From NCBI GenBank assembly GCA_016213725.1, contig JACQZS010000242.1, positions 1 through 34,619 of the forward strand: a stretch of DNA of 34,619 bases, written 5' to 3'. Under the pieces are notes generated by a model that was not told the DNA's origin, ran no database searches, and saw nothing but the letters and a program-made list of their open reading frames with translations. A program made the translations under genes and the position numbers. Origin of the DNA: Acidobacteriota bacterium (GTDB lineage: Bacteria > Acidobacteriota > Terriglobia > Bryobacterales > Bryobacteraceae). Positions 4,233-17,273 of this stretch are shown here, piece by piece (positions within the stretch are counted from its first letter, which is position 1; each line of letters opens with the position of its first letter).

Positions 4233-4433
4233 TTGCTCAGGTACCTCTGGAAAGTCACGAAGGGGTATCGCCTGGCGCCGTGGCGGAGCCCCTACTTGCG
4301 GTGGCGGATCGAGACCTTTTGGGGCACGCCGGCTGAGCAGATCGGGGCGGGGGAGTTCTGGCGCTTCTCGTGGCGGCATCGCGGAGATTTCCTTCGCTTT
4401 CTTCGCTGGGCGGAACGGATGGCGCGGGGTTAG
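4233..4433 (+). CDS. Small conserved-looking protein of unknown function, 66 residues
   Basis: Starts at TTG 4233, two bases after the stop of the second VWFA gene, with a good GGGGAG ribosome binding site six bases upstream. The protein is rich in Trp, Arg and Phe (for example WRSPYLRWRIETFWG and WRFSWRHRGDFLRFLRW) and basic, with no signal peptide or clear membrane segment. I do not recognise a named family. Position, spacing and Shine-Dalgarno signal support a real third gene in the VWFA operon. An opposite-strand open frame also covers this stretch, but it lacks any recognisable feature. Confidence 0.6.
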   Translation: MLRYLWKVTKGYRLAPWRSPYLRWRIETFWGTPAEQIGAGEFWRFSWRHRGDFLRFLRWAERMARG

Positions 4434-4447
4434 TTCGTCCCGGCGGG

Positions 4448-4477
4448 TTGATCTGTCCGGCGGCCCTGCGGTACAAC
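4448..4477 (+). promoter_or_regulatory. Candidate sigma-70-type promoter before the methyltransferase
   Basis: TTGATC (4448-4453) and TACAAC (4472-4477) are separated by 18 bases, each matching 4 of 6 consensus bases. The start codon at 4489 follows 11 bases after the -10, so the leader would be very short. Motif evidence only. Confidence 0.3.
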
Positions 4478-4488
4478 CAAGTGTTCGG

Positions 4489-5913
4489 ATGTCGCAACCC
4501 CAGCCAGTTCCTGAGACCGCAGCCCAGTCGCTTTCCGTGAAGCGGGCGCAGGTGGATTTTCACAACTTTGCTTCCCTGGGAGAGCCCGAGCGCGCTCTGG
4601 CCGCCTACGCCGATGAGAACTTCCGGCGCGGCTCGATTCTCAGGGCCAATCTCGACTTCTGCGGCGCGCTGACGCCGTTTCTCGAAGTTGGCGCCAATGC
4701 CGGGCACACCTCGTACCTGCTGGCGAACGACTTCGAGTCCGACGGCTTTGCGCTGGACCTCTCCGCCGACGCTTTGCGGCACGGGCAGTTCCTGCGCACG
4801 GCGTGGGACCTGAAGCGCGCGCCGCTGCTGACTGCGGGGGACGCCACACGGCTGCCGTTCCGCGACAACTCGCTGGCGTTTGTGATGACTTTCCAGACGC
4901 TGTCGCAGTTCCAGGACATGGAGACGGTTATCCGCGAAGTGCATCGCGTGCTGGCGCCGGGCGGGGTTTACTACTTTGCCGAGGAGCCGGTGCGGCGCAA
5001 GTTGTCGCTGCGGCTCTACCGCGCGCCGTACCCGGAACGCATGAAGACGTGGGAGAAGCGGCTGTACGATAACGGGCTGCTGGACTTCATCGCGATGGAC
5101 GTGATTGGAGCGCATCAGGAGGAGTCGTTCGGCATCCGGCAGAATCACCGCTACGGGCTGCGCGATTGGTCTGAGATGCTCTAACACTACTTCGAGGAGT
5201 TGAGGCTGATCACGTTCCCGCGGCAGCGGGGCTGGTCGAACCAGTTTGTGATGTCGGCGTTGCGGATGCTGCCGGGCAATGCTGAGCCGCGCATCGCCAC
5301 GGCGCTGGGCGCCACGCTGGCGGCGTTCTGCCGCAAGCCGGGCCAACTGCCGGAGTCGTTGCCGCTGAAGGAAGCCTTGGCCTGCCCCGATTGCGGCGCT
5401 GCGTTGCCGTTCGAGGAGCAGGCGCTCAAGTGCCCGGCGTGCTCCTACCGGGCGCCGAACGAAGGCGGGGTGTTCAACCTGCTGAGCACGGCGCTGAAGG
5501 CCGAGCTTTACCCTGGCGCGCGGCCGGATACGCTGGACTTCTCCAAGCCAGGCCACGAAGAGGGATTGCTGGAAGGGTTCTTCGATCTGGAAGGCGATTT
5601 TGGCAACAAGTACCGCTGGATCGGCGGACAGGCCAAGGCGCGGCTGAAGCGGGTGCGCACGGGGCCGCAGATGCTGCGGGTGCAGGGCTACGCGCCGTAT
5701 GTGGCAAAGGTGGAATTGAGGGCGAACGGAGCGGCGCTGGGGAGTTGGAAACTGGACCGTCCGGGCCTGTTTATTCTGGAGGCTCCGGTGGCGGAAGCTC
5801 CTGAATACATTGTAGATATCCTCGCTTCGCCGACATTTGCAGAACCCGGAGATGGTGCCAGGACTCTGTCGGTGAATTTGAGTCTTCTCCGTCTGCAACC
5901 GCCCGAAGCATAA
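4489..5913 (+). pseudogene. SAM-dependent methyltransferase with zinc-ribbon C-terminal part, interrupted by in-frame TAA
   Basis: One reading frame of 475 codons from ATG 4489 to TAA 5911 is interrupted once, by TAA at 5182-5184 (codon 232). The first part is a class I methyltransferase domain: LEVGANAGHTSYLL (SAM-binding motif I), LTAGDATRLPFRDNSLAFV, and VHRVLAPGGVYYFAEE. Coding sense runs straight across the stop: WSEML, stop, then HYFEELRLITFPRQRGW. The second part carries a four-cysteine CPDCG...CPACSY zinc-ribbon pattern and a beta-rich tail. It may be a recent pseudogene, a sequencing error, a read-through site, or two polypeptides; a TTG at 5200 just after GAGGAG could restart translation. 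Codon use is unchanged after the stop, which argues for recent inactivation or no inactivation. The methylated substrate is unknown. Confidence 0.75.
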
Positions 5914-5914
5914 G

Positions 5915-5954
5915 CACTTTCTCCGCCGCTGGAACTTTTTCGCCGGGAGAAGTG
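5915..5954 (+). terminator. Possible hairpin terminator after the methyltransferase
   Basis: CACTT-t-CTCC (5915-5924) can pair with GGAG-AAGTG (5946-5954) with one bulged T, and TCTTTAT follows. The stem is imperfect and the loop is about 21 bases. The same bases contain the ECF-type promoter described at 5931-5959, so only one reading, or a combined element, may be right. Confidence 0.35.
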
Positions 5955-5959
5955 TCTTT
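5931..5959 (+). promoter_or_regulatory. ECF-type (sigma-E-like) promoter before the ECF sigma gene
   Basis: GGAACTT (5931-5937), 16 bases, then GTCTTT (5954-5959). This closely matches the known sigma-E class consensus (GGAACTT, about 16 bases, GTC/TCTGA type -10). It sits 52 bases upstream of the ECF sigma start at 6012, the arrangement expected for autoregulation. Two direct repeats of GGCGCTAC (5969-5976 and 5983-5990) follow; the second runs into TACAAT (5988-5993), which could be the -10 of a second promoter. Confidence 0.5.
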
Positions 5960-6011
5960 ATCAATATCGGCGCTACGGTAAAGGCGCTACAATGGCTCTG
6001 CGGAGGCATCC

Positions 6012-13765: not shown

Positions 13766-15670
13766 CTAGACGGCTCGCAGAGGCAGGGCGCGAACGCGCT
13801 TGGCGGTGGCGTCGAAGATGGCGTTGGCCATGGCGGGGGCTACGGCCAGGATTGGCGTTTCGCCGGCTCCGGCGGAGGGTTCTTCCGTGCCGTCGAGGAG
13901 GATGACATCGAGCTTGGGCGGAACGTCGCGGAGGCGGGTGACCTTGTATGCGGAGAAGCGGCCGTTCTTGAGGCGGCCGTTTTCGAATTCGATCTGCTCG
14001 CGCAGGGCGGCCCCTAGGCCCATCAGGATGCAGCCCTCTACTTGAGAGCGGGTATTGGCGGGGTTCAGCAGTACGCCGCACTCGAAGGCTTCTACGATTT
14101 CGAGGAGGCGGGGGGCGCCGGTTTTGGGGTCGACTTCAACTTCAACGCAGGCGGCGACGACGGAGTTCTTTTCCGTGCCGCAGGCGAGGCCGATGCCGTG
14201 GTTGGGGGCGCGCTTCTCCTTGCGGCGGCGGGCCCAGCCGAAGCGCTCAGTGGCGGCGGTGAGGACGGCGCGGATGCGCGGGTGGTGAAGATGCGCGAGG
14301 CGGAAGTCGAGGGGATCCTGGCCGGCAGCGGCGGCAAGTTCGTCCATGAACGCTTCGCGGGCGAAGTTGTTGGCGGTGGAGGCGAGCGCGCGGTAGGAGC
14401 CCTGGCGTAGCGGGGCGTCGCAGGGAATATACTGCTCCTGCCTGGTGGGGATGCGGTATGGAGTTTGGAGCGCGGCGGTGCCGGAGTTGTAATTGATGAA
14501 CTGCCAGGATTCGATAATGCCCTGAGCGTTGAGCCTGGCAGAGGCGTCGATCAAGGCGGCGGGGCGGAAGTAGGCCCACATGAACTCTTCGGCGCGGGTC
14601 CAGCGGACTTTGACGGGCTTGCCGGCGGCCTTGGCGAGCCGGGCAGCCTCGAGCGCGGCTTCGCCGGTATGCTTGCCGCCGAAGCCGCCGCCGAAGTCGG
14701 GAACGATGACGCGAACCTGGCTGGTGGAGAGATGGAAGGCCTGGGCCAGGGAGTCGCGGACGCTGAAGGGGTTGCTGGTGCCGGTCCAGACGGTGAGCTT
14801 GCCGGCGCTCCATTCGGCGACGGCAGCGCGGGGCTCCATGGGAGCGTGCTGGACGTAGGCGGTGCGGAATTCGGCCGCGTGCGTCTTGCCGGCGAGCGGC
14901 TCGACGCGCTGTTTGGCTTTGGCGCGGAGGTCTTCGAAGAGGGTGGGGGTGGAGGATTGCGGAGTGGTCTTCCAGCGGGCGCTGGCTGTGAGGGTTTCGA
15001 GGGCTTTGCGGGCGGCGTAGGAGGTGCGGGCGGCGCAGCCGGCGAAGTCGCCGTCGCGGACCGCGGTGACGAAGTCGAGCTTGTTGGCGGGGTCGAGGTC
15101 GATGGATTCGAGCGTGGCGCCGTAGGCGGGCGGGCGGAGGACGGCGCCGTAGAGCATGCCTTCGCGGGTGACGTCGCTGGGGTACTTGTGTTCGCCGGTG
15201 GCGATTTCCCGGGCGGTAAGGTGCCATTGGGGCTTGCCGAGGATGGTCCATTCGGAGGGCTGGCGGAGAGCCTTGCGTGCGGCGGCGGCAGCCTGGCGGA
15301 CGGCGGGGATAGTGCCGGGCGTGGTGCGGCTGCCGGCGGTGAGGCCGTCGTTGGGGGTGCGATCGGTGTCGGCGAGTTGGACGCGGACTTTGCTCAGGGG
15401 CACACCGAGTTCTTCGGCGGCGGCCATGGCGATTTCGGTGCGCGCGCCCTGGCCCTCTTCGACCTTGCCGCTGAAGACGGTGGTGATGCCGTCGTCGCCC
15501 AAGTGAAGGCGGGCGGCGACGGTTTGTGCTCCGGCCTCGGTGGCGTAGACGGTAACGAGCAGGCCGGCGCCGAGGGTGAGGAAGAAGTCGCGGCGATCGA
15601 CCTCGAAGGTATAGAGGGGGCCTTCACGGAGTTCGAAGCGTTCGGGTTCGCGGGGATCATTTGGTAGCAC
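13766..15670 (-). CDS. Molybdopterin-binding subunit of a xanthine dehydrogenase-family hydroxylase (IorB-like)
   Basis: 634 residues from GTG 15670, which overlaps the small subunit by 14 bp. Family enzymes hydroxylate N-heterocycles or oxidise aldehydes at a molybdenum cofactor. DRRDFFLTLGAG (R26-R27) followed by a hydrophobic stretch looks like a Tat signal, fitting periplasmic IorB-type subunits. The substrate-domain motifs FGGGFGGKH and QHAPMEPRAAVAEW are present, as is the active-site glutamate in G601-A-G-E604. IorB proteins often have about 720-750 residues, so this one is on the short side. No cytochrome c subunit or maturation chaperone gene is in the window. The substrate cannot be told from sequence. 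Confidence 0.9.
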   Translation of the reverse strand: MLPNDPREPERFELREGPLYTFEVDRRDFFLTLGAGLLVTVYATEAGAQTVAARLHLGDDGITTVFSGKVEEGQGARTEIAMAAAEELGVPLSKVRVQLADTDRTPNDGLTAGSRTTPGTIPAVRQAAAAARKALRQPSEWTILGKPQWHLTAREIATGEHKYPSDVTREGMLYGAVLRPPAYGATLESIDLDPANKLDFVTAVRDGDFAGCAARTSYAARKALETLTASARWKTTPQSSTPTLFEDLRAKAKQRVEPLAGKTHAAEFRTAYVQHAPMEPRAAVAEWSAGKLTVWTGTSNPFSVRDSLAQAFHLSTSQVRVIVPDFGGGFGGKHTGEAALEAARLAKAAGKPVKVRWTRAEEFMWAYFRPAALIDASARLNAQGIIESWQFINYNSGTAALQTPYRIPTRQEQYIPCDAPLRQGSYRALASTANNFAREAFMDELAAAAGQDPLDFRLAHLHHPRIRAVLTAATERFGWARRRKEKRAPNHGIGLACGTEKNSVVAACVEVEVDPKTGAPRLLEIVEAFECGVLLNPANTRSQVEGCILMGLGAALREQIEFENGRLKNGRFSAYKVTRLRDVPPKLDVILLDGTEEPSAGAGETPILAVAPAMANAIFDATAKRVRALPLRAV

Positions 15671-16154
15671 TGGAGGCCTCCTTGCGGGCGGCGGGGCTTT
15701 GAACTGCTGCCCGGTGGACTGCGGCGAGGATGCGGGGATAGCCGCAACAGCGGCAAAGGCTGCCGTCGAGGGCTTCGAGGATCTCGGCGTCGGTGGGCTT
15801 TGGGCGCTGTTCGAGCAGGGCCGCCGTGCGCAGGACCATGCCGGCGGTGCAGTAGCCGCACTGCATGGCGCCTTCGTCGATAAAGGCCTGTTGGACGGGG
15901 TGGAGGGCGGCTCCGGAGGCGAGGCCTTCGATGGTTACGATCTTCCCGCCCTGGGCGGTTCGGATAGGGGTGACGCAACTGGCGATGGGACGGCCGTCGA
16001 GCAAGACTGTGCAGGCGCGGCACTGGCCTTCGCCACAGCCGTACTTGGTTCCGGTGAGTTGGAGATCTTCGCGGAGGACTTCGAGGAGAGGGCGGTCGGG
16101 CTCGGTGTCTACGGTGCGGGCCTGGCCGTTGACGGTGAATCGGAATGTAGGCAC
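15657..16154 (-). CDS. [2Fe-2S] subunit of a xanthine dehydrogenase-family hydroxylase (IorA-like)
   Basis: 165 residues. It carries electrons from the molybdenum centre through two [2Fe-2S] clusters. The plant-ferredoxin-type cluster is bound by C40-x4-C45-x2-C48-x11-C60 (GCGEGQCRACTVL); the second by C99-GY-C102 and C134-R-C136. The length matches isoquinoline 1-oxidoreductase alpha subunits. It has no signal peptide of its own, so it would have to be exported folded, carried by the Tat signal of the large subunit. The two genes overlap and are certainly co-translated. A 41-base gap separates it from the gtrA-like gene upstream on the same strand. Confidence 0.92.
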   Translation of the reverse strand: MPTFRFTVNGQARTVDTEPDRPLLEVLREDLQLTGTKYGCGEGQCRACTVLLDGRPIASCVTPIRTAQGGKIVTIEGLASGAALHPVQQAFIDEGAMQCGYCTAGMVLRTAALLEQRPKPTDAEILEALDGSLCRCCGYPRILAAVHRAAVQSPAARKEASSATK

Positions 16155-16601: not shown

Positions 16602-17273
16602 CTACCACTTGGTCTCTTCGCGGTAGAGTTGGGCCGCGTGGCGGACGGTGGAGTTGACGAGGATGAAGATCATGCCGATGGCGCCGCAGACGCCGCCGAC
16701 GTCGAAGAGCTTGTAGTGATGGCCGAAGATGTTGACGATGGGGCGGTAGAAGAGGAACGCATTCCCGATGAGGAGAAGGATGCGGAGCTCGGTGGGTCCG
16801 AAGAAGCCGGCGCTCATCTGGAAGCGGCCGAGAGCATAGGTGGCGAGGAACGTCTCGATGCTGACGAGCAGATATCCAATGAGCAGCGCCATGGAAATGG
16901 GGAAGCTCATGATGTCGCCGAGGCCTAGGCCGGATATGAGGAAGGCGCTGCCGATGGAGTCCAGGACATGATCGAGGTAGAAGCCGTAGCGGGGGCGCTG
17001 GAGGTTTCGGACGCGGGCGACGGTGCCGTCGAGGGAATCTCCGAACCAATTCAGGACGAGGAAGACGGCGACGAGGGAGAGGCCGAGGACCTTGTCGACG
17101 GAGGCGTACCAGTAAGAGAGGCCGGCGCCGATCATGGCCAGGAAGCCGAGGGCGGTAAGGTGGTCGGAGTTGATCCAACGCGGGAGGTGTTCGGCGATCC
17201 AGATGAGGAGGCGCTTCTCGGCGGAGGCGGTGAGGCTGGAGTGCTCGCGGGCGGCTTGTTTGAATTCGCTCAT
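16602..17273 (-). CDS. CDP-alcohol phosphatidyltransferase family membrane enzyme
   Basis: 223 residues with about six hydrophobic segments. The full catalytic signature is present: D79-x2-D82-G-x2-A86-R87-x9-G97-x3-D101-x3-D105. Enzymes with it transfer a phosphatidyl or similar group from a CDP-alcohol to an alcohol acceptor in phospholipid synthesis. The acceptor (glycerol phosphate, inositol phosphate or other) cannot be read from the sequence, and the protein is not clearly PgsA or PssA. A hydrophilic N-terminal stretch of about 20 residues precedes the first helix. It is the first gene of a minus-strand run with the GtrA protein and the molybdenum hydroxylase. No clear ribosome binding site is seen before ATG 17273. 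Confidence 0.9.
   Translation of the reverse strand: MSEFKQAAREHSSLTASAEKRLLIWIAEHLPRWINSDHLTALGFLAMIGAGLSYWYASVDKVLGLSLVAVFLVLNWFGDSLDGTVARVRNLQRPRYGFYLDHVLDSIGSAFLISGLGLGDIMSFPISMALLIGYLLVSIETFLATYALGRFQMSAGFFGPTELRILLLIGNAFLFYRPIVNIFGHHYKLFDVGGVCGAIGMIFILVNSTVRHAAQLYREETKW

Follow-up and report, generated by a model that had tools for sequence, protein, structure and literature searches.

A private in-frame stop codon in an otherwise intact methyltransferase-zinc ribbon gene of an Acidobacteriota draft genome

Interrupted coding sequences (ICDSs) are known to comprise both true mutations and sequencing errors (PMC1852416). When such genes of M. smegmatis were re-examined, sequencing errors were found in 28 of the 73 interrupted genes checked (PMC1852416). 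According to another study, in-frame stops with dN/dS below 1 are widespread among bacteria; its case is built on stops that orthologues share, with the focus on those found at one and the same position in two or more species (PMC7918605). Here we analyzed a stretch of 34,619 nucleotides (the window), which is contig C171 of a draft genome (6.05 Mb in 341 contigs, 88.8% complete). It carries a gene that resembles the ICDSs and young nonsense pseudogenes (PMC1852416) in having a single in-frame stop and being otherwise intact. We found no difference from the ICDSs, and the changed codon next to the stop is the sole peculiarity of the window gene. It is an ordinary interrupted coding sequence of a known kind and involves no new mechanism. 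The best explanation, to which we give a probability of roughly 0.5, is a private and very young nonsense substitution in a conserved, single-copy and probably non-essential methyltransferase gene.

The interrupted gene and its product

An earlier note on this DNA had described a methyltransferase-zinc ribbon gene in one frame with a single TAA, and our translation agreed with it in frame, coordinates and lone stop (Table 1). The frame has 475 codons, including the terminal stop. The note had also held that the gene continues unshifted past the TAA and that both sides are alike in codon use. Indeed, the homologues align across codon 232 as one unbroken protein, and the coding potential is high both upstream (0.40) and downstream (0.26). 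The frame beyond the TAA is genuinely the same gene and more than a chance continuation.

Table 1. Features of the interrupted gene, with positions in the window.
Feature	Position	Strand	Basis
Interrupted gene: class I SAM-dependent methyltransferase, zinc ribbon and C-terminal beta-sandwich (predicted)	4489..5913	+	translation, Pfam, homologue comparison
Open part ahead of the stop, 231 aa: N-terminal region and SAM-binding Rossmann part	4489..5184	+	Pfam PF08241
Internal TAA, codon 232; TAC (Tyr) in the closest relative, sense in all relatives read	5182..5184	+	
Codon 233, CAC (His), private; Arg/Lys in nearly all relatives	5185..5187	+	
TTG, suggested re-initiation start; GAGGAG (5194-5199) abuts it without a spacer; CTG in the closest relative	5200..5202	+	
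Putative zinc ribbon CPDC...CPAC, residues 299-318	5383..5442	+	sub-cut-off Pfam matches, Cys conservation
C-terminal beta-sandwich, residues ~360-470, predicted fold like CBM6/35/36	5566..5898	+	structure model, Foldseek
Terminal TAA, the same stop codon in normal use	5911..5913	+	

By its Pfam match, the N-terminal part belongs to the class I SAM methyltransferases (PF08241): Methyltransf_11 matched residues 65-163 with 54.4 bits against a cut-off of 21.2 (E = 2e-14). The product has the SAM-binding N-terminal region in common with that family and differs from it in the Cys4 zinc ribbon and the CBM-like beta-sandwich that are fused on. The Trm112p and zinc-ribbon models of Pfam matched the ribbon region, all below their cut-offs, and the four cysteines of the two CxxC knuckles (C299, C302, C315 and C318) are invariant in 11 homologues. 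In a structure model built from an 11-sequence alignment, the methyltransferase half cannot be trusted (pLDDT below 50), and the beta-sandwich is modelled mostly with good confidence (block pLDDT 62-95). Foldseek related the beta-sandwich to carbohydrate-binding modules CBM6/35/36 (E about 3e-5 to 2e-4), with a low whole-chain TM-score. None of the NCBIfam equivalog models passed its own cut-off against this protein. From the domains, one might guess that the protein helps to modify a glycan or a lipid-linked sugar.

In the segment upstream of the ATG (window 4466-4491), no ribosome site was found. About 12 bases ahead of the ATG, the same segment contains the motif CTGCGGTACAA, which is kept in three relatives. 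It is possibly the -10 element of a leaderless, or nearly leaderless, transcript.

Codons 232 and 233 in the relatives

Judged by the interrupted gene, the nearest relative is G008 (JARKQJ010000145.1), filed as a Paludibaculum sp. MAG (Acidobacteriota) and called the sister below. Its contig is collinear with almost the entire window, with a DNA identity of 82-90%. The orthologue in the sister is intact: residues 1-474 align at 92% protein identity, with the same domains and in the same neighbourhood. It differs from the interrupted gene at codon 232 (TAC versus TAA) and at codon 233 (CGG versus CAC). With a threshold of E below 1e-60, homologues were found in 131 of the 237 family genomes, at more than 130 places in all, and no internal stop occurred in these homologous stretches outside the window. 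A TAG that looked like a second case (G003, contig C48) was the normal terminator of its gene. A search of a plasmid collection gave no more than distant methyltransferase matches.

The note had asked for codon 232 to be compared in close relatives. All those read have a sense codon there: Tyr in the sister, His, Asn or Gly in the other genus members, and almost anything further out (CAC/CAT, AAC, GGC etc.). The alignments mark it as a very variable position. CAA appeared at this column in none of the loci read, and the note was wrong in its example of a CAA to TAA change. Codon 233, which the note did not mention, is His in the window and Arg or Lys nearly everywhere else. The stop is private, and its surroundings look intact.

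The relatives also bear on the suggestion that the TAA divides two genes, a 231-aa methyltransferase and a zinc-ribbon/beta-sandwich protein started separately at TTG 5200 or ATG 5251. Start-capable codons do follow the stop, with GAGGAG nearby. However, all complete relatives have one continuous frame and encode one continuous protein, not the pair of separate genes that the note had envisaged. GAGGAG touches the TTG with a spacing of zero, and it codes for Glu-Glu in the intact sister, which reads GAAGAG CTG there. ATG 5251 lacks a good ribosome site, and a properly spaced site together with a conserved start was not found after the stop. In the low-confidence model, the boundary would also fall inside a predicted helix and not between domains. 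We consider a split gene with re-initiation very improbable.

An open frame of 584 aa (window 4255-6009, minus strand) runs antisense to the whole gene. It is a by-product of codon use, because the sister has five stops there and the other relatives have 0 to 7.

Age of the stop and its possible causes

We polarised the differences between the window and the sister with seven outgroup genomes. On the 3′ side of the stop, seven amino-acid changes fell on the window branch and eight on the sister branch, together with 32 and 30 synonymous changes, respectively. On the 5′ side, the amino-acid changes numbered seven and four, and the synonymous changes 28 and 37. The dN/dS between window and sister was 0.08 after the stop and 0.05 before it. 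Neither relaxed selection nor a second lesion was seen 3′ of the stop. The dS between the two was about 0.7, and had the whole branch evolved neutrally, some 190 non-synonymous changes would have accumulated 3′ of the stop. The observed counts leave room for no more than a few extra changes, so by our estimate the stop spans at most about 3% of the branch. Therefore, the stop is either very young, or not present in the cell, or relieved in its effect by read-through.

Decay after the lesion would be missing in a very young interrupted gene and equally in a sequencing error; a young interrupted gene needs no decay. Of the marks of a young nonsense pseudogene, we found a disabling lesion absent from the orthologues, and we did not find subsequent decay in the form of raised dN/dS or further lesions. 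Two of the four readings proposed in the note, a very recent nonsense mutation and a sequencing error, both fit all of these findings, and only the proposed CAA origin fell away.

If the mutation is real, TAC to TAA (Tyr232 to stop) would be the simplest substitution. Translation would end after 231 residues, and the end of the methyltransferase region would be lost along with the zinc ribbon and the carbohydrate-binding-like domain. Truncated in this way, the gene has most likely become inactive in this lineage. We infer that the TAA is present in cells, not merely in the consensus, and that the product is inactive. The gene would then be an interrupted coding sequence too young for visible further decay. 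Its loss looks tolerable, because many family genomes have no match at the threshold used. Nevertheless, all nine genus genomes carry the gene, which suggests that the gene is of some use. A real lesion would mark the very recent loss of a methyltransferase kept by all sampled members of the genus. Several points tell against a young mutation. It would have to be very young, codon 233 is also odd, and in this assembly three further genes interrupted by private stops (see below) have extra private changes nearby as well. Such clusters of changes around stops also fit local consensus errors.

If the consensus is in error through sequencing or assembly, the gene is intact in the cells and codon 232 is a sense codon there, probably TAC. 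The lack of decay on either side of the stop, the draft state of the genome and the precedent of M. smegmatis all agree with this. So do the odd difference of two neighbouring codons (TAC CGG in the sister, TAA CAC in the window) and the short clusters of private changes in which the other private stops sit. On the other hand, no substitution type was in genome-wide excess towards this assembly in 105 gene pairs, and no frameshift-like breaks occurred in 94 genes. A consensus error is a serious contender at somewhat less than even odds, in our view slightly behind a real, very young nonsense mutation. When a draft assembly shows a lone stop, relatives and reads should be consulted before recoding or a split gene is proposed.

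The absence of relaxed selection after the stop would also be expected if read-through supplied some full-length protein and kept the gene under purifying selection, and the note had listed programmed read-through. Like the in-frame stops under purifying selection described in bacteria, the window stop is followed by sequence with dN/dS far below 1. It differs from them in being private, whereas the published evidence rests on stops shared by orthologues (PMC7918605). Read-through also found no support in the other features that we surveyed. The stop is absent from all homologues, and no unusual stimulating RNA structure was found downstream of the TAA (z = 0.19). ARAGORN, run on the 41 tRNA matches of the assembly (genome 88.8% complete), gave no anticodon for TAA; a tRNA-Sec is present in the assembly and reads UGA, and no other stop-reading anticodon was found. 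Furthermore, the interrupted gene itself terminates in TAA, and TAA is accordingly a terminator that works in the gene itself. Read-through that maintains selection on the gene is improbable. A real stop with enough UAA read-through to act as a lineage-specific brake on expression is a shade more so.

Other interrupted genes in the assembly

A coding-potential scan covered 967 kb of the assembly and was followed by Pfam searches and genus alignments. It gave 38 candidates, most of which had the look of ordinary gene boundaries in the same frame. Pfam checks of ten candidates identified boundaries in at least four cases and interrupted genes in two (GTP cyclohydrolase II and a GSU2086-family gene). 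Altogether, at least four genes are interrupted in 0.97 Mb, namely the window gene and three others. This is a lower bound, as the scan is blind near gene ends, covered the fetched stretches only, and had only part of its candidates checked. In 346 kb of the sister, five candidates were found, which by eye resembled gene boundaries or an antisense frame. The difference between the two genomes means nothing, because only one to two interrupted genes would be expected in the sister at the same rate. The private stops of this assembly belong to a background of interrupted genes that is already known.

In-frame stops in three further genes might be taken as a sign that TAA is reassigned or suppressed genome-wide in this organism. 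However, TAA, TAG and TGA all occur among these stops, and the residues replaced differ (Tyr, Ser, Leu, Gly and Cys). The 20 window genes whose terminators were inspected end in TAG (11), TGA (8) or TAA (1); 19 of the 20 thus avoid TAA, and the one that uses it is the interrupted gene. A suppressor tRNA was rejected, as none was found among the 41 tRNAs. We regard genome-wide reassignment or suppression as next to negligible.

The sister genes were also compared with the fetched parts of the assembly. Two of the 94 well-matched genes had clear internal stops, namely the window gene and a gene on contig C220; a third flagged stop precedes the likely true start of its gene. A generally error-prone assembly was not supported by these 94 genes, which lacked frameshift-like breaks, or by the substitution spectra, which were near-symmetrical in the 105 gene pairs. 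An oxidative-damage signature was rejected too, since C>A was balanced with A>C and G>T with T>G in the same pairs. The impression that G-to-T and C-to-A changes are common came from private changes picked by hand (Y232 to stop, A84S, P187T and the other stops).

Each of the three other genes has its own features. On contig C220, a gene with no family assigned (L155:5435-6190, plus strand) has two private stops, TAG 6068 and TAA 6080, four codons apart near its 3′ end. Beyond both stops, identity to the sister remains at about 80%. On contig C132, the GTP cyclohydrolase II gene (L207:13099-13821, minus strand) has TGA at 13461-13459, where eight relatives have an invariant Gly; to arrive there from GGC or GGG takes two base changes or more. 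Contig C253 carries another homologous gene, which is uninterrupted. On contig C8, the GSU2086-family gene (L054:16845-17461, plus strand) has TGA at 17099-17101, at a Cys (TGC) invariant in all eight genus relatives. The genus has a tRNA-Sec, and selenocysteine is conceivable at this TGA. A private nonsense change appears as likely, because no stable bacterial-type SECIS hairpin was predicted after the TGA (z = 0.38) and a nearby invariant His is Gln.

Elsewhere in the window lies the gene of a molybdopterin-binding oxidoreductase (13766-15985, minus strand), for which the longest frame of the sister starts further upstream and the window has a TAA at 15937. The N-terminal extension looks like an over-call.
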